Positions 15,818-34,002 of a stretch of DNA of 64,000 nt are shown one piece after another. The stretch comes from an uncultured Neomegalonema sp. GTDB lineage: Bacteria; Pseudomonadota; Alphaproteobacteria; Rhodobacterales; Rhodobacteraceae. Each line of letters starts with the position of its first letter. The first letter of the stretch is position 1. The position numbers were made by a program, and so were the translations under genes. The DNA is taken from positions 1-64,000 of the forward strand of contig CALFAK010000094.1 in assembly GCA_937948985.1 (NCBI GenBank). The letters are read 5' to 3'. The notes below the pieces were generated by a model. That model was not told the origin of the DNA. It saw nothing but the letters and a program-made list of their open reading frames with translations, and ran no database searches.

Positions 15818-16798
15818 ATGCCAGAATATCAAAACATCTTCACGGCGATCCAGGTTCGCGGGCATCTCGAAGAGGGTATACCGCTGCCGAAAGGTGACGC
15901 TGATCGCTCCGGCAAGCCATTCCATAATTATTGGCTCGGCAAAATCGGTAATGCCCAGATTGGACCGATCTATCTTGGCTTTCTGGGGTCCGTTTCCCTT
16001 TTCTGCGGCTTGGTGGCCTTCCTGATTATCGGGCTTAATATGCTCGCATCGGTTGGATGGGATCCTATTCAATTCGTGCGTCAGCTGTTCTGGCTGGGAC
16101 TGGAACCACCGGGGCCGGAATGGGGCTTTCGCATTATCCCACCGCTTAACCAAGGTGGTTGGTGGATCATCGCGGGCTTCTTCCTGACCGTTTCAGTGCT
16201 GCTCTGGTGGGTACGGATGTATCGTCGGGCGGTGCAACTGGGCCTTGGAACGCATGTGCCTTGGGCTTTTGCGGGAGCGATCTTCCTGTTCCTCGTTCTG
16301 GGCTTCATCCGCCCGCTGTTGATGGGAAGTTGGGCTGAGGCCGTACCGTTCGGCATCTTCCCGCATCTCGACTGGACGGCGGCGTTTTCGATCCGCTACG
16401 GCAATCTCTATTACAACCCGTTCCACTGCCTTTCGATCGTCTTCCTTTATGGCTCGGTCCTGCTGTTCGCAATGCACGGGGCGACCATTCTGGCGGTCAG
16501 CCGTTACGGCGGCGAACGTGAATTGGAGCAGATTACTGATCGTGGCACGGCCTCTGAACGCGCTGCCCTATTCTGGCGCTGGACGATGGGTTTCAACGCG
16601 ACGATGGAGTCGGTACACCGTTGGGCGTGGTGGTTTGCTGTTCTGACGCCAGTTACGGGCGCGATCGGTATCCTGCTGACCGGAACGGTGGTCGATAACT
16701 GGTATCTGTGGGGCATCAAACATGGCATCGTCGCGCCATTGCCCGATCTTTATCCAACCGTGGTTGATCCGGCGGTTGCCGCAGGGGGTGTGCAATGA
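15818..16798 (+). CDS. pufM: Photosynthetic reaction centre M subunit
   Basis: A 326-residue, five-helix reaction-centre subunit. It starts [15 protein letters not shown] at ATG 15818, 5 bp after pufL; the longer open frame from 15773 overlaps pufL and is rejected. Typical blocks are [29 protein letters not shown] and [37 protein letters not shown], containing the non-haem iron and special-pair histidines. Its stop overlaps the pufC ATG. Confidence 0.97.
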
Positions 16799-17850
16799 AT
16801 TTCGCTCTTCCTTTCGCTATAGCGGGGGCAACCCTGCTCGGTATCGCCAGTGTTGTCGGGGTTGACTGGGACGCGCCGCCTGTTGAGACGGAGCAGGTCG
16901 GGTATCGCGGGACCGGCATGTATGTGACCAAAGACGCGGCTGAAGCAGCGGCCGGGCGGGCGAATAACGTGGTCCCCGAATCCCCTTGGGAGGCGGACCC
17001 CGAAGGGGATCGCGCCAGTGAAGTCTATGAAAACGTTCAGGTTCTAGGACATCTGTCAGAAGATCAGTTCGATCAGTTCATGGCCTCGATCACCGAGTGG
17101 GTCTCACCGGAGGCGAGCTGTGAATACTGCCACAACCTCGAAAACATGGCGTCTGATGAGGTCTATACCAAGATCGTCGCGCGCCGGATGATCCAGATGA
17201 ACCAAGCCATCAACGTCGATTGGACGGCCCATGTTGGTGACACCGGGGTGACATGTTACACCTGTCACAGGGGTAATCCGGTGCCAGAAGAGGTATGGTA
17301 TCGCGACATAGAACCCAAAAAAGCCAGCAGAGGCTATCGCGGTGGTCAGAACGTCGCGGCGATGTTCGGTGGTAACAGTTCGCTGCCACAAAACGCGCTC
17401 GAGGACTATCTGCTCGGTGATGAGGAAATCCGTGTTCACGCCGATACCGCTCTACCCACGGGTGCGCAAAAGGCGACAACCAAGGAGACGGAGAACACTT
17501 GGTCGCTGATGATGCATATGTCTGAATCGCTGGGCGCAAATTGTGTGACCTGTCACAACAGCCGCGCGTTCAACGATTGGGATCAAAGCCCGCCACAACG
17601 TGTCACCGCTTGGCACGGCATCCGTATGGCGCGTGAGTTGAACGTTGATTACATGGTCGGCCTGACGCCACTCTTCCCGAAGGATGAAGTTCATCTGGGA
17701 CCGGAAGGTGATGTGCTGAAAATCGGTTGTTCGACATGCCATAACGGGGTTCAAAAACCGCTCTACGGCGAGTCGATGATGGGCGAATACGGTGCGTCGC
17801 TCGGAGAGAAGAGCAATACGGACGTGCCAGACTACGGCGCTTCAAACTGA
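16795..17850 (+). CDS. pufC: Reaction-centre tetraheme cytochrome c subunit
   Basis: A 351-residue periplasmic electron donor to the photo-oxidised special pair. Four CxxCH haem sites are intact: CEYCH 109-113, CYTCH 154-158, CVTCH 250-254 and CSTCH 312-316, with Met ligands upstream of the first three. The N-terminus ([24 protein letters not shown]) is a hydrophobic anchor with no lipobox cysteine, so it is probably held by an uncleaved helix rather than lipid. It ends the puf operon. No pufX is present; PufC-type centres often lack it. Confidence 0.97.
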
Positions 17851-21883: not shown

Positions 21884-22507
21884 ATGAGCTTTGATGACGG
21901 CTTCAACTGCCCCAACTGCGGCGCCGAACTGTCGTGCAAACTGCGCCATTCAAAGATGGTCGCGTGCGAATATTGCGAATCGACCGTGCTGCTGGAAGAC
22001 GAAACGGTGCGCAAAGTCGGCAAATCCGGTGTGATGGCGGAGGAGCCGTCGCTGTTCGTGCTGGGCCGCGAGATCATCCATAAAGACGAGAGCTTCCTCC
22101 CAGTTGGCCAAGCGCGTTTTGGCTATGCAAACGGCTGGTGGGATGAATTTTGGGCCATCGGCGGGGACGGGCAAGGTGTTTGGGTGAGTGTCGATGAGGG
22201 CGAAATCGCAATCGAACGCCCCTACCCCATCACAGTGACATTCAATCCCGATGCCCTGACCGTCGGCAGCAGCGTGATCCTGAAAGACGAGCGTTTCCGC
22301 ATTACCGAAGCTGACACTGCAACTTGTAAAGCGCTACGCGGGGAGTTCCCGGAACCGATCCGGATCGGGCAAACCTATCGCTACTGGCATTTGTCGGGCG
22401 AACGCGCGCGGATTGTGACGCTGGAGTACAGTGACGGAGAATTTCAGGCTAGCGAAGGGGTCTGGGTTGACCCCTACCTGATCCGCAGCTCAAACGTGGC
22501 CGCATGA
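21884..22507 (+). CDS. DUF4178 protein with N-terminal zinc ribbon
   Basis: A 207-residue cytosolic protein. The N-terminus carries a zinc ribbon (CPNCGAELSCK ... ACEYCES, four cysteines, about residues 8-39), followed by one DUF4178 beta-rich domain (LFVLGREIIHKDESFLPVGQARFGYANGWWDEFWAIG). The start is ATG 21884, behind GGAGG. It is the first gene of an operon with a second DUF4178 protein, a small peptide, DUF350 and an aminopropyltransferase. DUF4178 has no known activity; association with polyamine-synthesis enzymes and membrane proteins is its main clue. Confidence 0.85.
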   Translation: MSFDDGFNCPNCGAELSCKLRHSKMVACEYCESTVLLEDETVRKVGKSGVMAEEPSLFVLGREIIHKDESFLPVGQARFGYANGWWDEFWAIGGDGQGVWVSVDEGEIAIERPYPITVTFNPDALTVGSSVILKDERFRITEADTATCKALRGEFPEPIRIGQTYRYWHLSGERARIVTLEYSDGEFQASEGVWVDPYLIRSSNVAA

Positions 22508-22616
22508 GTGTGGTGAGTGCATACGGGCAGCGCTTTAAAGTCCTCTCCCCGCTTGCGTGGGGAAAGGGAGCAGGCCCGCAACAAAATATGGCCTTCGCTT
22601 TGAGCGGCGTAACCCT

Positions 22617-23888
22617 ATGACTGAAACACAAAACCAACGCCTCGCGGCGATTAATTGCACGAATTGCGGGTCCGCTTTGCCCGCGCTTGCCGGGCATCGG
22701 GCCAAGGCGCTGGTGTGCAGTTATTGCGGCTCTGTCATGGATCGGCATGACGATTACAAGGTGCTCGCCCGCTATCGTAATATGGAGCGGCCCTATGGAC
22801 CGTTCACGCTGGGTATGCGGGGCGAGGTTCTGGGCGTGCCGCATACGATTGTGGGGATTGTCGGGGTTGCCGCGCGGATATGGGGCGAAGACTATCCTTG
22901 GACGAACTATCAACTCTACAGCCCAACCCACGGTTATAGCTGGCTGACATGGAATGACGGCCACCTGACCCATTCGCGCAAAACACGCGAGATGCCGAAC
23001 CTTGTACCGAACAGCCAGTTTGTGCCGAAATCGACCTTCGGGGCGGCGGGTCGGACCTTTAAGATGTTCGAGCAATACAACGCGCGTATCAATTATATTG
23101 AGGGCGAACTGACGTGGGTTCCGAAGCTGGGCGATCAGACACGGGTGATGGAGGCGATTGATCCGCCCTATGGTTATGCCGTGGCGATGGGGGAGAACGA
23201 GACCGAGTTCGAGATGTCGAGCTACCTCGACCAGCAAGCCACTTTGGCGAGTTTCGGGGTGGAAGACAGCTGGACCAAGCCGTTCGGCATTCATGCAATC
23301 CAACCGTTCGAGCCGGGCGCGCTGCACACAGGTCTCAGCCGGGCCGCGATGATGTTCGTCCCGATTACCGCCGCGATCAGCCTTGGCCTGCTGGTTCTGG
23401 GTGGGGGCAAAACGATTGCACAAGGACAGATCGATAACCCGGCGGCGGGCGGCTCGCTGGCCTTTCCGGTGACCGCGACGAACCGCTTGGTGTCGATCAA
23501 AATCAAAACCAACGTGTCAAACTCCTGGGCGTGGTACGATATGAGCCTGACCCATGAGGAAAGTGACGAGACGATTGCCGAGTTTGATGGCGGCGTCGAA
23601 TACTACTATGGCCGCGATAGTGACGGATCATGGACGGAGGGGTCCAACGAGGCGGTATTCCGGTTCAAACCACCCGCAAAGGGCGCGTATCGGATCGCGG
23701 TTGAAGGTATCGAAAAAGGCTCTGACAACCGCCCGATGAGTATCGTCGTGCGTGAAAAGGTGATGCTGGTACGGTATATGGTGGGCATGTTCATCCTGAG
23801 CCTCGTCCTCGCGGCGAGCATGTGGTTCCGCGAGAAGCAGTTCGAGGCAAAACGCTGGGGCGAGGACGGGAGCGACGATGATGACTAG
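22617..23888 (+). CDS. DUF4178 membrane protein with zinc ribbon
   Basis: A 423-residue protein in four parts: a zinc ribbon (CTNCGSALPALAG ... VCSYCGSV), DUF4178-type beta domains to about residue 240, a transmembrane helix (MMFVPITAAISLGLLVLGGG), and an extracytoplasmic beta-sandwich-like domain (LVSIKIKTNVSNSWAWYDMSL ... EAVFRFKPPAKGAYRIAVEG) closed by a second helix (MVGMFILSLVLAASMWF) and an acidic cytoplasmic tail (EDGSDDDD). The start is taken at ATG 22617. It links a cytosolic sensor-like half with a periplasmic domain. The stop overlaps the start of the next small gene. Confidence 0.85.
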   Translation: MTETQNQRLAAINCTNCGSALPALAGHRAKALVCSYCGSVMDRHDDYKVLARYRNMERPYGPFTLGMRGEVLGVPHTIVGIVGVAARIWGEDYPWTNYQLYSPTHGYSWLTWNDGHLTHSRKTREMPNLVPNSQFVPKSTFGAAGRTFKMFEQYNARINYIEGELTWVPKLGDQTRVMEAIDPPYGYAVAMGENETEFEMSSYLDQQATLASFGVEDSWTKPFGIHAIQPFEPGALHTGLSRAAMMFVPITAAISLGLLVLGGGKTIAQGQIDNPAAGGSLAFPVTATNRLVSIKIKTNVSNSWAWYDMSLTHEESDETIAEFDGGVEYYYGRDSDGSWTEGSNEAVFRFKPPAKGAYRIAVEGIEKGSDNRPMSIVVREKVMLVRYMVGMFILSLVLAASMWFREKQFEAKRWGEDGSDDDD

Positions 23889-24033
23889 AGTGTTTCTCGT
23901 GGTATTCACGATGATGACGGGCGGCGCGACCTATGCCAGCGTTTACGGCATCGGCGGCGAAACATCGGCCATCGCCAAATCAATCCGGTCCGGCAGCGGC
24001 GGACGGGTCGGCTATATCGGCGGTGTGAAATAA
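23878..24033 (+). CDS. Small secreted or membrane-anchored peptide of the DUF4178 operon
   Basis: A 51-residue frame starts at ATG 23878 inside the last codons of the upstream gene (alternative ATG 23881) and ends with TAA 24033. It reads MMTRVFLVVFTMMTGGATYA, then a short Ser/Gly/Arg-rich tail ending RVGYIGGVK. The N-terminus looks like a signal peptide or anchor with a possible cleavage after TYA. Overlapping start, same strand, and position between two operon genes argue for a real gene. No function known. Confidence 0.6.
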   Translation: MMTRVFLVVFTMMTGGATYASVYGIGGETSAIAKSIRSGSGGRVGYIGGVK

Positions 24034-24069
24034 CCGCTCTAAAGGTTTGAGATAAGAAGGAAATCCGAC

Positions 24070-24294
24070 ATGGAAATACTCGCCGGAATTAACGCGCCAG
24101 AGGTGATTGCAACGATATTCTACGCGTTCCTCGGCCTTGGCCTGATGATCATCAGCTATATTATTATCGACGCGCTGACCCCGTTTTCGCTGCACGAGGA
24201 GCTGTCCGGCAAGGCGAATACGGCGGTGGCCATTGTAATGGGGTCGGTGATGATCTCGCTGTCGATCCTGATCGCCAATGTGATTAACAGTTAG
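24070..24294 (+). CDS. DUF350 small membrane protein
   Basis: A 74-residue inner-membrane protein with two helices (EVIATIFYAFLGLGLMIISYIIIDALTPF and NTAVAIVMGSVMISLSILIANVI) and the DUF350 motif DALTPFSLHEEL between them. Many DUF350 proteins (YjfL type) carry two such units with four helices; this one has a single unit and would need to dimerise. AGAAGGAAAT ribosome region before ATG 24070. It abuts the aminopropyltransferase gene with no gap. Confidence 0.82.
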   Translation: MEILAGINAPEVIATIFYAFLGLGLMIISYIIIDALTPFSLHEELSGKANTAVAIVMGSVMISLSILIANVINS

Positions 24295-25842
24295 GTGAGC
24301 GACGATACGCCTGCGGAAAACCGCCATGTCGGGCTGCTGCTGCTGGGCGCAACGTTTGTGTTGGCGATTTGCGGGCTGGTCTATGAGCTGATCGCCGGGG
24401 CGCTGTCGAGTTATCTGCTTGGTGACAGCGTCTATCATTTCTCGCTGGTCATCGGGCTTTTCATGAGCGCGATGGGAATTGGCGCGTTTCTGTCGCGGTA
24501 TGTGCAAAACCCTGAGCGGAGCTTTGTCGCGGCGCAGATTGCGCTGGGGTTGATTGGCGGGTTTTCGGCGATGATCCTGTTCGCGGCCTTTGCTGTGATC
24601 GAGAATTACACGGCTTTTCTGCTGCTGGTGACGGTGGCGACAGGCACGTTGGTGGGGCTGGAAATCCCGCTTGTGTTGCGAATTTTGGAGGGGCACGGGG
24701 CGCTGCGGATGACGGTGTCGAACGTGCTGACCGCTGATTACATCGGTGCGCTGGTGGCGGCATTGTTGTTTCCGTTGATCCTTGTGCCGCAGCTGGGGCT
24801 GATGGGGGCCGGGCTGCTGTTCGGGTCGCTGAATCTGATTGTGGCGGCGATGGCGCTGTGGGTGTTTCGGGCGCAGTGCGGATGGGGATTGCGGGCCGCG
24901 TGTTTGGCCGGATTTGTGGCGCTGGGCGCAGGGGCGTTATCGAGTGAGCGCGCGATTGGCGGGATGGAGCGGCGGCTGTATGCCAACGAGATCATCCTCG
25001 CACAAGACACGCCCTATCAGCGGGTGGTGGTGACGCGGGACGGGACGCGGTATCAGCTGTTCCTCAACGGATCGGTGCAGTTCGATACACTGGACGAGTA
25101 CCGCTATCACGAGGCGCTGGTGCATCCGGCAATGACCCGCGCACCACGACTGGACCATGTGGTGATCTTTGGCGGCGGCGATGGGATGGCGGTGCGGGAG
25201 GTGCTGCGCTATCCGTCGGTGAAGCGCGTAACGCTGGTGGATATTGATGCGGTGGTGACGGCGCTGTTCCGCGACCAACCGGCGTTGGCGGCGCTGAATG
25301 ACGGGGCGCTTTTGGACCCGCGTGTGGAGATCGTGAACGGTGATGCCTGGGCGTTTTTGAAGGATGGTAACGCGGTTTTTGATGTGGCGATTCTTGATCT
25401 GCCAGACCCCAAAGACCTCGCGATTTCAAAGCTGTATACGCGGGCGTTTTACACCGATCTGATGCGCCGGATGAGCGCGGACGGTGTAGTTATCACCCAA
25501 GCGACCTCGCCCCTTTACGCGCGAAAGGCGTATTGGACGATTGCGGCGACGCTGGAGGCGACGGCTGTGCCGCTGGCCCCGGACCAAACGCTGACGGTGC
25601 TGCCCTATCACGCCTATATCCCCAGCTTTGGCGAATGGGGGTTTGTGCTGGCGGGGGGGCGGTTGCGGGGGGAGCCGCTGCGGGATTTGCCGGAGGGGTT
25701 GCGGTTTATGGACCCGAGCAGCGCGGCGCGGATGTTTGATTTTGCCAGCGATATCGGGCGGCTCGATATGCCGCCCAGCACGCTGTTCGACCAACCGCTG
25801 CCGCAGCTTTATGAGGATGGGTGGAATGAGTGGTTTGATTGA
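24295..25842 (+). CDS. Membrane-fused polyamine aminopropyltransferase (spermidine synthase-like)
   Basis: A 515-residue protein. The N-terminal half has about seven transmembrane helices (LLLLGATFVLAICGLVYELIAGALSSYLLG ...), as in the SpeE fusions with a membrane exporter-like domain. The C-terminal half is a spermidine-synthase Rossmann domain: VVIFGGGDGMAVREVLRY, VTLVDID, then the active-site loop AILDLPDP with its Asp residues. The start codon is GTG 24295, immediately after the DUF350 stop. Most likely it transfers aminopropyl groups from decarboxylated SAM at the membrane face. No SAM decarboxylase is adjacent. Last gene of the operon. Confidence 0.88.
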   Translation: MSDDTPAENRHVGLLLLGATFVLAICGLVYELIAGALSSYLLGDSVYHFSLVIGLFMSAMGIGAFLSRYVQNPERSFVAAQIALGLIGGFSAMILFAAFAVIENYTAFLLLVTVATGTLVGLEIPLVLRILEGHGALRMTVSNVLTADYIGALVAALLFPLILVPQLGLMGAGLLFGSLNLIVAAMALWVFRAQCGWGLRAACLAGFVALGAGALSSERAIGGMERRLYANEIILAQDTPYQRVVVTRDGTRYQLFLNGSVQFDTLDEYRYHEALVHPAMTRAPRLDHVVIFGGGDGMAVREVLRYPSVKRVTLVDIDAVVTALFRDQPALAALNDGALLDPRVEIVNGDAWAFLKDGNAVFDVAILDLPDPKDLAISKLYTRAFYTDLMRRMSADGVVITQATSPLYARKAYWTIAATLEATAVPLAPDQTLTVLPYHAYIPSFGEWGFVLAGGRLRGEPLRDLPEGLRFMDPSSAARMFDFASDIGRLDMPPSTLFDQPLPQLYEDGWNEWFD

Positions 25843-25996: not shown

Positions 25997-26830
25997 TTAT
26001 ACTTCCGGCGGGTTCGCGGCGAATTCGTAATTGGCGCGGCGTTTGGCGGGGGTAGCTTCGGCATCAATCATGCCCGTTTCAACCCGGTGCGCGCTGGCCA
26101 TGAGCGGTTTGATAAGCTCCGCTTCGGGCAGGTTTTTCCAATACTTCTTCGGCATTTCCGAAGTCATCGCTTTGACTTTGAGGCGGGCCGGATTGAAAAT
26201 AGCGGCGTAGTATCCGCGCCACATCTCCTCCAGCGCATCAGAATCGGGGGCATCGGCGCGTTTTGCGCCGGGACCAAAGGCGAGGGTTTCGCGGTTCCAG
26301 TGTGCGGAACACTCCGGCGTCAGGATTGACCAGCGCATATTCGCAAAGCGGCGGACGAAGAAGGCGGCGTTTTCCTCAACGATGCGATGCTCCGGCTCGA
26401 ACCACGCGACGTAAGTATCCGTCTCACCTTTGACGGCGCGAAAGCGGACGAAGGCGCGCATTTTGTGGCGGTCGCGCCGTACAGACTTTATCAATTTTTC
26501 AAATTGATAGACATCATCGTCAACGCTGTTTGCCAACAGTTCGGGCTTTTGCTGGATGCGCCACAGCAGGCGGTACAACAGATCAAAACGCCCGCGATCA
26601 CGGTTGCAGATGGCGAGTTTCGCGTCGCTGAGAAACTGTTTCGGGACGCGCAGGCGGCGGGAAGGTTCGCGGGGATCGAGCGGGCGCTCCAATGCGCCGA
26701 AAAGGTCCGCTTGCGCGGTGCCGACCTGCCACGCCACATCCTGAGGCGGGATGCCATCGACGAGGAGTGAGCGGGCCTGTCCGCGCCAGCCGTCAAAATC
26801 GGTCTCATGTTCCAAACGCACCACCCGCAT
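25997..26830 (-). CDS. DUF4130 / TIGR03915-type putative DNA repair protein
   Basis: A 277-residue protein with GVLICCT-like helical regions and the family block FEPEHRIVEENAAFFVRRFANMRWSILTPECSAHWN, ending PKKYWKNLPEAELIKPLM. This family (DUF4130) is nearly always encoded with the radical-SAM partner found here. In some bacteria it is fused to a uracil-DNA glycosylase-like (UdgX) domain; that domain is absent here. The start is ATG 26830, overlapping the stop of the upstream gene (ATGA). A role in DNA repair or modification is inferred from context and the SOS box upstream. Confidence 0.85.
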   Translation of the reverse strand: MRVVRLEHETDFDGWRGQARSLLVDGIPPQDVAWQVGTAQADLFGALERPLDPREPSRRLRVPKQFLSDAKLAICNRDRGRFDLLYRLLWRIQQKPELLANSVDDDVYQFEKLIKSVRRDRHKMRAFVRFRAVKGETDTYVAWFEPEHRIVEENAAFFVRRFANMRWSILTPECSAHWNRETLAFGPGAKRADAPDSDALEEMWRGYYAAIFNPARLKVKAMTSEMPKKYWKNLPEAELIKPLMASAHRVETGMIDAEATPAKRRANYEFAANPPEV

Positions 26831-28068
26831 CAGAATGCAAGCTCCAGCTGTTTTGGCTTTGGTGCGAGGATGCCGCGCAGACCCTCGCGGTCTAAAATCG
26901 CTGTGGGTCGCCAATCTTGCGTGACAATGAAGGGGCGTATCTTGCTGATATTACGACACAGCTTGCCGATATCAGCCAGGCGTAACCGCCCGTGACGGCG
27001 GGCGGAGAGGATGGAGCCGACGCTTTTCGTGCCAAGGCCGGGAACGCGTAACAATTGTTCTTTTGCGGCGCTGTTCACATCAATCGGGAAGAGATCACGG
27101 CGTTGGAGCGCCCATGAGAGCTTGGGGTCTATATCAAGCGGCAGCATCCCGCCTTCCATAGCGGTATCAAGGTCTTGCAGGCCGAAACCGTAGAACCGCC
27201 AGAGCCAATCGGCCTGATAAACGCGGTGTTCACGCATCAGAGGCGGGCGTTGGAGGGGGAGGTCTTTCGAGGCATCGGGTATCGGGCTGAACGCTGAATA
27301 ATAGACGCGTTTGAGGCGGTAGGAGCCGTAGAGATCGGTGCTGGAGCGCAGCACATCCGAGTCCGATGCACCATCCGCGCCGAGAATCATCTGCGTCGAT
27401 TGTCCGGCGGGGGCGAAGCGGGGTGCGGATTTGATGCGCTTGCGCTCCTGCTTCCAACCGATGATTTGATCACGGGTTGATGCCATCGCGTCGCGGATGC
27501 GGGTTTCGTCTTTTTCGGGGGCGAATTTGGCGAGGCCGCTGCGCGTTGGCAGTTCAACATTGATCGATACGCGGTCCGCCAGACGCCCCGCCTCGGCCAG
27601 TAACAGCGGGTCTGCGTCAGGGATGGTTTTGAGGTGGATGTAGCCCCTGAAATCTTCGCGAACGCGCAGAATACGTGCGACTTCAATGAGTTGCTCCATC
27701 GTGTAGTCGGGAGATTTGATGATGCCTGAGGAGAGGAAAAGCCCCTCAATATAATTGCGCTTGTAGAAATCGATGGTCAATCGGGCGAGGTCTTCGGGCA
27801 TAAAACGGGCGCGTTGGACGTTGGAGCTGATCCGGTTCACACAAAAACGGCAGTCGAACATGCAGTAGTTTGCCATCAGGATTTTGAGAAGCGAGATACA
27901 GCGCCCGTCAGGCGTGTAAGCATGGCAGATGCCCATGCCTTCAGACGATCCCACACCTTTGCCACCACGCGAATCGCGGGTTGTCGAGCCGCTGGATGAG
28001 CATGAAGCGTCATATTTCGCGGCATCGGCGAGGATTTTCAGTTTTTCGAGTCGCGACAGTGAAGCCAT
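26830..28068 (-). CDS. Radical SAM protein with helix-hairpin-helix (TIGR03916 type)
   Basis: A 412-residue putative DNA modification/repair radical-SAM enzyme. The SAM-cluster cysteines are Cys69, Cys73 and Cys76 (YCMFDCRFCVNR), a CX3CX2C spacing. The C-terminal third holds a helix-hairpin-helix DNA-binding element (LLRVPGLGTKSVGSILSARR, about 346-365). It is co-encoded with the DUF4130 protein, with a 4-bp overlap. A LexA box lies 14 bp upstream of the ATG, so DNA damage probably induces both genes. The substrate is unknown. Confidence 0.9.
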   Translation of the reverse strand: MASLSRLEKLKILADAAKYDASCSSSGSTTRDSRGGKGVGSSEGMGICHAYTPDGRCISLLKILMANYCMFDCRFCVNRISSNVQRARFMPEDLARLTIDFYKRNYIEGLFLSSGIIKSPDYTMEQLIEVARILRVREDFRGYIHLKTIPDADPLLLAEAGRLADRVSINVELPTRSGLAKFAPEKDETRIRDAMASTRDQIIGWKQERKRIKSAPRFAPAGQSTQMILGADGASDSDVLRSSTDLYGSYRLKRVYYSAFSPIPDASKDLPLQRPPLMREHRVYQADWLWRFYGFGLQDLDTAMEGGMLPLDIDPKLSWALQRRDLFPIDVNSAAKEQLLRVPGLGTKSVGSILSARRHGRLRLADIGKLCRNISKIRPFIVTQDWRPTAILDREGLRGILAPKPKQLELAF

Positions 28069-30336: not shown

Positions 30337-33300
30337 ATGGAAATTCAACGGCTTGATACTGTTGAGCAGAAAGATGCGTATGACAGCATCGGTTTTAAAT
30401 TGACCACCAGCGAGATTCGCAATCCTGACGGGTCCACAGTTTTCAAACTTGATGATGTTGAAGCGCCTGAGGCGTGGTCTCAGGTTGCTTGTGATGTGCT
30501 GGCGCAGAAATATTTCCGCAAGGCGGGTGTTCCGGTTGCGCTGAAAAAGATCAAAGAAAAGGGCGTGCCAGAATGGCTGTGGCGCTCTGCACCGGACGAG
30601 AAGGTTCTGGATAAGCTGGCCGAGGAAGATCGTTCCACGGGCGAGCGCACGGCGAAGCAGGTATTTGACCGCCTCGCGGGCGCTTGGACGTATTGGGGCT
30701 GGAAAGGTGGTTACTTCACCACTGAATCAGATGCGCGGGCGTATTTTGATGAAATGCGGCTGATGCTCGCCAAGCAAAAGGCCGCGCCGAACTCTCCGCA
30801 ATGGTTCAATACCGGCCTCCACTGGGCCTATGGCATCGACGGACCAAGCCAAGGTCACCACTATGTGGATTACAAATCGGGTAAAATGACCCGCGCGAAA
30901 TCCAGCTATGAGCATCCGCAGCCTCATGCGTGTTTTATCCAGTCTGTCACCGATGATCTGGTGAACGAAGGCGGGATTATGGACTTGTGGGTCCGCGAGG
31001 CGCGGCTGTTCAAGTACGGCTCCGGCACAGGGACAAACTTCTCGAACCTGCGCGGTGAGGGCGAGTCTCTGTCCGGTGGCGGGCGGTCGTCCGGCCTGCT
31101 GAGCTTCCTGAAAATCGGTGACAAAGCGGCAGGTGCGATCAAGTCCGGCGGCACAACACGCCGGGCTGCAAAGATGGTGATCGTTGATGCGGATCACCCT
31201 GATATTGAGGCGTTCGTCGATTGGAAAGTGACAGAGGAGCAGAAAGTTGCGTCCCTTGTCGCGGGATCGAAAATGCACGAAAAGCATCTCAACATCGTCA
31301 TGGCGGCGGTAAAGTCGTGGGACGGCAATGCCGATGATGCGTTTAATCCGAAGAAAAACGCGCTGCTGAAAGCGTCAATCCGCGAGGCGCGCAAGGCGTG
31401 CATTCCTGACAACTATGTGCAGCGCGTGCTGCAATACGCGAAGCAGGGCTATGAAAAGATCGAATTCCCGACCTATGAGGCCGATTGGGATTCAGACGCA
31501 TATCTGACGGTCGCGGGCCAGAACGCCAACAATTCGATCCGCGTGACGGATGAGTTCCTGAAAGCCGCGCAGCAAGGCAAAGACTGGGATTTGATCCGCC
31601 GGACCGATGGCAAAATCGCCAAGACGATTTCCGCGTCGAACCTGTGGGATCAGATTGCCCATGCCGCGTGGTCCTGCGCTGATCCGGGCATCCAGTACCA
31701 TGACACAGTCAATGATTGGCACACCTGCCCGAATTCCGGCCCCATCCGCGGATCGAACCCGTGTTCGGAGTATATGTTCCTCGACGATACCGCTTGTAAC
31801 CTCGCTTCGCTGAACCTGCTCGCGTTCACGGATGCGAAGGGCAAGTTCGACATCAAGGCATATGAGCACGCGGTGCGCTTGTGGACGCTGACGCTCGAAA
31901 TCTCGGTGATGATGGCGCAGTTCCCGTCGGAGGCGATTGCGCAGGGGTCTTATGATTTCCGCACGCTGGGTCTGGGCTATGCCAATATCGGCGGCCTGTT
32001 GATGACGATGGGTCTGGGTTACGATTCCGACGAAGGCCGTGCGCTTTGCGGGGCGCTGTCGGCTGTGCTGACGGGCGTCTCTTATGCGACTTCTGCGGAG
32101 ATTGCCGGGGAGCTTGGCCCGTTCGCGCGGTATGAAGAGAACGCGGATGAGATGTTGCGCGTGATGCGCAACCACCAACGTGCGGCGCATGGTAAGAAAG
32201 CGGGCTTTGAAAAGCTCCGCACCGCCCCCGTGCCACTGGATCACGGCAATTGCCCCGATCAGCGCCTGATCACGGCGGCGACGAAGGCGTGGGACAATGC
32301 GGTCCGATTGGGCGAAAAGCACGGCTATCGCAATGCGCAAGCATCGGTTGTTGCACCAACGGGGACGATTGGCCTCGTAATGGATTGCGATACGACCGGG
32401 ATCGAGCCGGACTTTGCACTGGTCAAGTTCAAGAAGCTGGCCGGAGGCGGTTACTTCAAGATCATCAACCAAGCGGTTCCTGCGGCTTTGAAAACGCTGG
32501 GTTATGACGCGGCGCAGAGTGAGCAGATCATCAACTACGCTGTGGGTTACGGCACGCTGAAAGATGCACCGGGCGTCAATCACGACACGCTGCGCGCCAA
32601 GGGTTTTGAGGATGCGCAGCTTGATGCGGTTGAAGGCGGTTTGAAATCGGCGTTCGACATCAAGTTCGCATTCAACCAATGGACGCTGGGCGAGGAGTTT
32701 TGCACGGGAACGCTGGGAATCGAGGCGGCTTCGCTGACCGATCCGACATTTGATCTGCTGCGGGCCATCGGCTTTACCCGTACTGAGATTGACGCGGCGA
32801 ACAACCATGCTTGCGGGACGATGACGTTGGAGGGTGCGCCGCACCTCGCTGACGACCATCTGAACGTGTTCGATTGCGCCAACCCATGCGGCAAGACCGG
32901 AAAGCGGTATCTGTCATGGGAAAGTCACATCAAGATGATGGCGGCGGCGCAGCCGTTCATCTCCGGCGCGATCTCGAAGACAATCAACATGCCGAACTCC
33001 GCTTCGATTGAGGACTGCAAGGAGGCGTATATCCTGTCGTGGCGCCTCGCGCTCAAGGCCAACGCACTCTATCGTGACGGCTCGAAACTATCGCAGCCGT
33101 TGGCCTCACAACTGATTGCGGATGATGAAGACGCGGATGATCTGGCGGATGCGCTGTCGAGCGAACGTCCCGCAGCGGCCCGTGCTGAAGCGTTGGCAGA
33201 GCGGATTGTCGAGAAGATCATCTACCGCGATGTCGCCAACCGCGAACGTGAGAAGATGCCGCAACGGCGCAAGGGCTATACCCAGAAAGCCATCATCGGC

Positions 33301-34002
33301 GGGCATAAAGTCTACCTGCGGACGGGCGAGTATGAGGATGGCCGGCTCGGTGAAATCTTCATCGATATGCACAAAGAGGGCGCGGCGTTCCGGGCGATGA
33401 TGAACAATTTCGCGATTGCCGTCTCACTGGCCCTGCAATACGGGGTGCCGCTGGAGGAGTTTGTTGACGCCTTCACCTTCACACGGTTTGAGCCTGCGGG
33501 GATTGTGCAGGGGAACGATTCGATCAAGAACGCGACTTCGATCCTCGACTACATCTTCCGTGAATTGGCCGTCAGCTACGTCGGACGCAATGATCTTGCT
33601 CATGTCGATACGGGCGGTGTGCGATTTGACGAGCTGGGCAAGGGCGAGGCGGATGATCCCGGCGCGGTGGACGGAACGCCGAAGAAAACGGCGACCCCTG
33701 CGGTGGATATCCTCAAGCAGTTCGCATCGCCGGGCTTCCTGCGCTCGCGTGTGCCGGACGGGTTCGCGGGTGATCTGGCGGTGGAATCGGTTAGTCCGGT
33801 TGCGATCGTCAGCAGCCCCGTTGTCGACCGCGTCGCCACGGCCTCCGCTTCCGCCAGCGCTAAGGTGCTGGACCGTGTCGCAGAGGCGAAGATGAAGGGT
33901 TACGAAGGCGATGCTTGCGGCGAGTGCGGGAACTTCACTTTGGTGAGGAACGGCGCGTGTTTGAAGTGTAACTCGTGTGGCGGGACGAACGGGTGTAGTT
34001 GA
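30337..34002 (+). CDS. nrdJ: Vitamin B12-dependent (class II) ribonucleotide reductase
   Basis: A 1221-residue adenosylcobalamin-dependent reductase that makes deoxyribonucleotides with or without oxygen. The active-site region [21 protein letters not shown] holds the conserved Asn-x-Cys-x-Glu set (here N-P-C-S-E), and [20 protein letters not shown] is the conserved phosphate/substrate loop. The C-terminal CGECGNF ... [14 protein letters not shown] carries the redox-active and zinc-type cysteines. ATG 30337 follows a good ribosome site. It is a monocistronic housekeeping gene placed within the non-photosynthetic stretch. Confidence 0.96.

Follow-up and report, generated by a model that had tools for sequence, protein, structure and literature searches.

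Lysine-tailed partner proteins of membrane-bound spermidine synthase fusions: a candidate extracytoplasmic aminopropylation system in an uncultured Neomegalonema

The window analysed here is a stretch of 64,000 nucleotides (nt) from an uncultured Neomegalonema sp. of the order Rhodobacterales (assembly GCA_937948985.1, contig CALFAK010000094.1, positions 1 to 64,000 of the forward strand), and its subject is an operon of five plus-strand genes, A to E, at positions 21884-25842. These encode two zinc-ribbon DUF4178 proteins, a membrane-anchored microprotein (C), a DUF350 protein and a spermidine synthase (SpeE) domain fused to a membrane domain (E). The kind of operon is already known; the new part is a partner protein with a lysine tail. 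Microprotein C ends in Lys in every ortholog found, and enzymes of the type of E are near-universally paired with an apparently exported protein whose tail ends in the same residue. It appears somewhat probable that the operon serves to modify a protein at the outer face of the inner membrane, with E aminopropylating the epsilon-amine of the terminal Lys of C.

Gene C (23878..24033, plus strand) encodes 51 residues with the tail KSIRSGSGGRVGYIGGVK-COOH; the codon of Lys51, the proposed aminopropyl acceptor, is AAA (24028..24030) and is followed by the stop codon TAA (24031-24033). An ortholog was found at all 33 loci of the order that carry DUF4178, and the microproteins of such operons range from 50 to 65 residues. 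In each, a short hydrophobic anchor is followed by a Ser/Gly/Arg-rich tail, in which the motif S-[IVL]-R-x-G-S precedes a Gly/Ser stretch and the final Lys; S35, R37, S40 and K51 were invariant in an alignment of 18 diverse copies. By a search rule that ignored the last residue, candidates were recovered at 32 of the 33 loci and every one of the 32 ended in Lys; the remaining microprotein (locus L041), which starts further downstream and was located separately, does so too. Among the four other proteins of these operons (A, B, D and E) a C-terminal Lys occurred in 0 of 132 cases; B, at the loci of the order that have C, terminates in Asp or Glu at 32 of 33 and in Lys at none. The original prediction had listed the product of C as a tiny exported peptide; such a protein exists, but it is no mere passenger, its strictly conserved C-terminal Lys being its most informative part and making it a likely substrate. 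Export of C and of the other lysine-tailed proteins was inferred from their hydrophobic anchors and lipoboxes. A spurious open reading frame (ORF) was ruled out by the invariance of residues across alpha-, gamma- and epsilonproteobacteria. The Lys end is not an artefact of a filter requiring [VI]K, as the 32 of 32 were obtained without that requirement, nor an effect of base composition, as 3.8% of all ORFs end in Lys and control DNA yielded no lysine-tailed ORF.

At loci without C, in Proteobacteria and Bacillota, a Ser/Gly/Arg-rich tail with a Lys end is borne by a different product of the operon, exported or in the membrane. The hosts of the tail are unrelated and include a lipoprotein ending ...GRGLRGGK in operons of the PspA/CesT type (L090-L093), proteins ending ...GGGISFGK in Bacillota (L129-L136), fusions of two DUF4178 domains with tails such as ...YTSGGSHK (L098-L103, L107, L108), B itself in Beggiatoa, where C is absent (...SGSFSSFGK, L114), a 510-residue lipoprotein on an Alteromonas plasmid (...GPSSGK, L141) and a 48-residue protein on a Novosphingobium plasmid (...GPSHK, L139). 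A lipobox is present in the hosts at L141, L254, L257 and L260. The genome of the window (G000) carries a second membrane SpeE fusion (L187:6165-8404, contig C132), which overlaps a preceding 198-residue membrane protein ending ...GGLGKGK; neither DUF350 nor DUF4178 stands alongside, and this two-gene unit may be a minimal form of the system.

The pairing was counted in a census of 349 genomes of the phylum, in which 41 loci from 39 genomes scored above the curated cut-off of PRK03612 and their neighbourhoods were read. At 37 of the 41 a lysine-tailed membrane protein or lipoprotein was encoded nearby or fused, and in G491 such a protein lay about 12 kb away (L101). As controls, the same rule was run on 58.5 kb of window sequence beyond the operon and on 151 kb from loci lacking a membrane SpeE, 209 kb in total, and returned no lysine-tailed ORF. 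The pairing was further tested on five genomes with a solitary E: DUF4178 genes were found elsewhere in all five, with a lysine-tailed microprotein directly behind B in four.

A counterpart with a different last residue is found in Escherichia coli, where the DUF350 protein YjfL is neighboured by YjfM, a DUF1190 protein, and by YjfC, which carries the annotation peptide-spermidine ligase; YgiB and YgiC form a second pair, and YgiB, also of DUF1190, carries a lipobox. Both DUF1190 proteins have Ser/Gly/Arg-rich tails like those described above, but with a Gly-Gly end. In a sample of DUF1190 proteins from the phylum, 25 of 30 automatic picks ended in Gly and two in Thr or Ser, and the remainder were apparently wrong ORF picks. 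An ATP-grasp ligase requires a free carboxylate, as in glutathionylspermidine, and an aminopropyltransferase requires an amine. The tail sequences thus suggest that the last residue matches the chemistry of the neighbouring enzyme, Gly-Gly serving the ligase and Lys the aminopropyltransferase. Like the YjfC/YgiC systems, the operon of the window combines DUF350 with an enzyme of the polyamine-attaching kind and with an exported partner whose C-terminal tail is rich in Gly, Ser and Arg; it differs in that the enzyme is an aminopropyltransferase and the end Lys, where they have an ATP-grasp ligase and Gly-Gly. It has no DUF1190 partner, and DUF1190 (PF06693) had no match in its genome; no search was made there for the ATP-grasp enzyme. 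The ligase systems (yjfIJKLMC, ygiBC) are attributed to Pederick et al. 2023, as cited in passages of PMC12270671 and PMC10948618.

Gene E (24295..25842, plus strand) matched Spermine_synth (8.1e-34) and, over residues 10-513, the NCBIfam model PRK03612/NF002956 (polyamine aminopropyltransferase) with 603 bits against the curated cut-off of 472. It comprises half of a major facilitator superfamily (MFS) fold with six transmembrane helices (TM; residues 1-195), a seventh helix (TM7, 197-229) and the SpeE domain (about 230-515), with Asp368 in the motif DLPDP as candidate catalytic residue. The SpeE part of an AlphaFold2 model (predicted local distance difference test score 88.6) superposed on structure 1uir with Z 34.5 and a root-mean-square deviation (rmsd) of 2.1 over 269 aligned residues, and the motifs for decarboxylated S-adenosylmethionine (dcSAM) and catalysis (GGGDG, D316/D318, D350 and D368-LPDP) were invariant over 25 sequences; E thus has a SpeE fold with intact active-site motifs.

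The membrane part was modelled as residues 1-195 folded together with the next helix. Residues 1-194 matched the C-terminal half of FLVCR2 (Z 19.6, rmsd 2.7, 187 aligned), and Foldseek by itself gave an E-value of only 0.02 for this part; each chain has one six-helix half and one further helix, not the 12 helices in two halves of a full MFS protein. Both ends of an MFS half are cytoplasmic. Across 122 distinct E sequences the mean Lys plus Arg content of loops 1 to 6 alternated (0.12, 1.61, 0.18, 2.48, 0.33 and 2.43), the stretch after TM7 was acidic, and the catalytic part held a mean of 0.25 Cys, with zero in 101 of the 122; the shorter membrane part had a mean of 1.37, and six standard SpeE proteins had 1-6 Cys each. 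Because of the match to an MFS half followed by TM7, the alternating loop charges and the scarcity of Cys, the SpeE domain is predicted to be extracytoplasmic, on the same side as the tails. Reading the 51-residue helix H140-190 as a single TM would leave the domain in the cytoplasm, but both the loop charges and the match to an MFS half speak against this. In the Novosphingobium operon the fusion is followed by a flavin amine oxidase (PF01593) with a twin-arginine (Tat) signal and a lipobox (L139:8442-10432) and then by speD, and proteins with Tat-like starts follow E at L094 and L098. The Novosphingobium oxidase and speD are consistent with amine chemistry outside the cytoplasm, where the oxidase may act to remove the modification.

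The remaining genes, all on the plus strand, are as follows. Gene A lies at 21884..22507 and encodes a predicted cytoplasmic protein of 207 residues with a zinc ribbon and DUF4178 (PF13785, E 1.6e-13); it is the first gene at 33 of 33 loci. Gene B (22617..23888, 423 residues, with an alternative GTG start at 22557) has a zinc ribbon, DUF4178 (PF13785, 1.1e-10), a TM, an extracytoplasmic PPC-like domain (PF04151, a weak match at 0.007), another TM and an acidic C-terminus. Gene D (24070..24294, 74 residues) encodes a half-size, YjfL-like DUF350 membrane protein (PF03994, 9.6e-13, profile positions 5-66 of 133). Intervals are 49-109 nt between A and B, 36 nt between C and D and 0 nt between D and E, with B and C overlapping. 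All five ORFs, closely spaced on one strand, are thus present as originally predicted, as are the two zinc-ribbon DUF4178 proteins (one membrane-spanning with an outside domain), the DUF350 gene and the enzyme fused to a membrane domain. At Bacillota loci L129-L136 two half-size DUF350 genes (about 68 and 64 residues) stand in tandem, which suggests that the halves pair; at several of these loci a potassium-channel-like gene follows E.

DUF4178 was present in 33 of 293 genomes sampled in the order and in 14 of 114 genera. A neighbourhood survey, as had been proposed to establish whether the gene set recurs, found the order A-B-C-D-E invariant in all 33, at protein identities of roughly 27-54% (27-42% to the window proteins for A and B, the window's own copy excluded); because gene order is kept at such low identity, the operon is real and its arrangement not due to chance. 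Among the genomes compared, the closest relatives are uncultured Neomegalonema, with E 92% identical. A broader sample of the phylum had DUF4178 in 26 of 398 genomes, in several other gene layouts. Promoter and terminator scans gave no signal above chance.

SAM decarboxylase had been described as missing. None is encoded in the operon, but absence from the genome was ruled out, as speD adjoins a standard speE on contig C160 and is thus available in trans. A partner of the PspA family, the stress protein in published operons of the PSP type, was also sought, and PF04012 had no match in the operon or elsewhere in the genome (94.67% complete).

Under the proposed mechanism, cytoplasmic dcSAM would be supplied in trans by SpeD and carried across the membrane by the half-MFS part of E, probably as a dimer, and the SpeE domain would transfer its 3-aminopropyl group to the epsilon-amine of the last Lys of the tail. 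This would leave a C-terminal Lys tethered to the membrane and bearing a side chain with a spermidine skeleton, (CH2)4-NH-(CH2)3-NH2, an end of the same kind as spermidine joined by a ligase to Gly-Gly. The DUF4178 proteins A and B and the DUF350 protein D would have scaffold or regulatory roles, probably holding the tail or reporting its state, and the most likely purpose would be to steady or sense the envelope through a polyamine fixed at the membrane surface. The C-terminal Lys is taken as the target of E because of the pairing at 37 of 41 loci, the 32 of 32 Lys ends, the unrelated hosts of the tail and the Gly end that accompanies ligases. More tentatively, the system may represent a new bacterial modification, the extracytoplasmic N-epsilon-aminopropylation of C-terminal Lys on membrane-tethered proteins by a half-MFS/SpeE enzyme that carries its own dcSAM out across the membrane, with the last residue (Lys or Gly-Gly) serving as a code for the matching polyamine-attaching enzyme throughout a superfamily of DUF350 systems.

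Several points weigh against this. Three of the 41 census loci (G451, G344 and G349) showed no lysine-tailed partner near the searched genes, and one of the five genomes with a lone E (G667, L154) has a DUF4178 pair with no lysine-tailed microprotein behind it and none by profile search. In Bacillota the catalytic part of E contains 2-3 Cys, which makes the cysteine argument weaker there. A periplasmic aminopropyltransferase requires exported dcSAM, for which we know of no precedent. Finally, the C-terminal Lys could instead be an attachment point of the Braun lipoprotein type. The C-terminal Lys of Lpp and OprI is joined to peptidoglycan, the apparently exported proteins described here end in the same residue, and their tails are long, flexible and extracytoplasmic, with lipobox-bearing hosts at the four loci named above; an L,D-transpeptidase would link the epsilon-amine to peptidoglycan and so tie the membrane proteins of the operon to the wall, with the SpeE fusion acting elsewhere or only tuning. 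Such an anchor is considered improbable: it leaves unexplained both the near-universal association with SpeE and the switch to Gly-Gly, which offers no amine, beside peptide-spermidine ligases, and no transpeptidase gene was noticed in the operons, although none was specifically searched for.

The same modification might be made in the cytoplasm before export, by a SpeE domain on the inner side (six TM, the last helix not crossing) that loads the tail ahead of Sec or YidC. The donor dcSAM is cytoplasmic, and ligases of the YgiC/YjfC type use ATP while the partner YgiB has a lipobox, so that loading before export is chemically plausible. This order of events is nevertheless unlikely given the complete six-helix MFS half at residues 1-195, ending in the cytoplasm with a seventh hydrophobic helix next, together with the loop charges, the acidic stretch and the low Cys content already described. 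The original prediction had favoured a polyamine system for membrane stress or envelope modification, in which DUF4178 would sense or recruit; on a view of this kind E would make a free or lipid-linked polyamine protecting against envelope stress, and the lysine-tailed protein would be an unmodified sensor or scaffold. This too seems rather doubtful: a fusion of this type, or its SpeE domain alone, reportedly fails to replace spermidine synthase, the genome already has a standard speD-speE pair, and the constraint on a single residue at the tail end is left unexplained. In its favour are the intact dcSAM and catalytic motifs of the SpeE domain, and polyamine or aminopropyl signalling has been inferred for PspA operons in passages of PMC11237479.

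Regarding known systems, Li, Kurihara, Kim, Liang and Michael are said to have described in 2019 a fusion of an MFS part to spermidine synthase, accompanied by AdoMet decarboxylase and DUF350, which (as a whole or as the SpeE domain alone) does not substitute for spermidine synthase; aminopropylation of a non-polyamine substrate was reportedly proposed, without the substrate being named. E is an enzyme of the same type, and the lysine-tailed proteins are new as candidate substrates. The lengthening of Lys side chains by polyamine-type groups is known from hypusine on eIF5A and from the polyamine-lysines of silaffins, which depend on other enzymes and donors; here the Lys would be C-terminal, the donor dcSAM and the setting bacterial and outside the cytoplasm. 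Braun lipoprotein, a helical trimer without a link to SpeE, has in common with the present proteins the C-terminal Lys on an exported protein, and differs from them in their Gly/Ser tail and association with SpeE. According to passages of Ravi et al. 2024 (PMC11237479), a PspA-CesT/Tir operon contains a fusion of seven TM with spermidine synthase, DUF350, the lipoprotein 'Ctha_1186' and DUF4178, and aminopropylation of other substrates was proposed there, citing Li et al. 2019. The operon of the window shares with that type (group 2 of Ravi et al.) the membrane SpeE fusion, DUF350, DUF4178 and a small exported partner, which likewise ends in Lys at the loci of that type examined here (L090-L093). 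It differs in that genes for PspA and CesT/Tir are absent, there are two DUF4178 proteins with zinc ribbons, of which one has an outside domain, DUF350 is half-size and a microprotein of 50-65 residues takes the place of the lipoprotein. An actinobacterial variant with a DUF4247 protein is also named in PMC11237479. The available passages of PMC11237479 make no mention of a C-terminal Lys, no paper describing the lysine tail was found in the literature searched, and DUF4178 was found there in no other paper.

Elsewhere in the window, positions 16795-17850 encode a photosynthetic reaction centre cytochrome c subunit (PF02276, 2.9e-129), and the Neomegalonema-related host may be an anoxygenic phototroph. 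Downstream of the operon, on the minus strand at 25997-28068, a gene for a DUF4130 protein overlaps one for a radical-SAM protein with a helix-hairpin-helix motif, and a class II (B12-dependent) ribonucleotide reductase with a TSCPD domain is encoded at 30337-34002.

If the proposed mechanism is true, it would add a new protein modification and the use of a SAM-type donor outside the cytoplasm. The rule that Lys accompanies an aminopropyltransferase and Gly-Gly an ATP-grasp ligase would link two sets of envelope operons, one of them in E. coli. Membrane-bound spermidine synthase fusions are common and reportedly do not make spermidine, and the Lys-ending partner offers a concrete candidate substrate for these enzymes.

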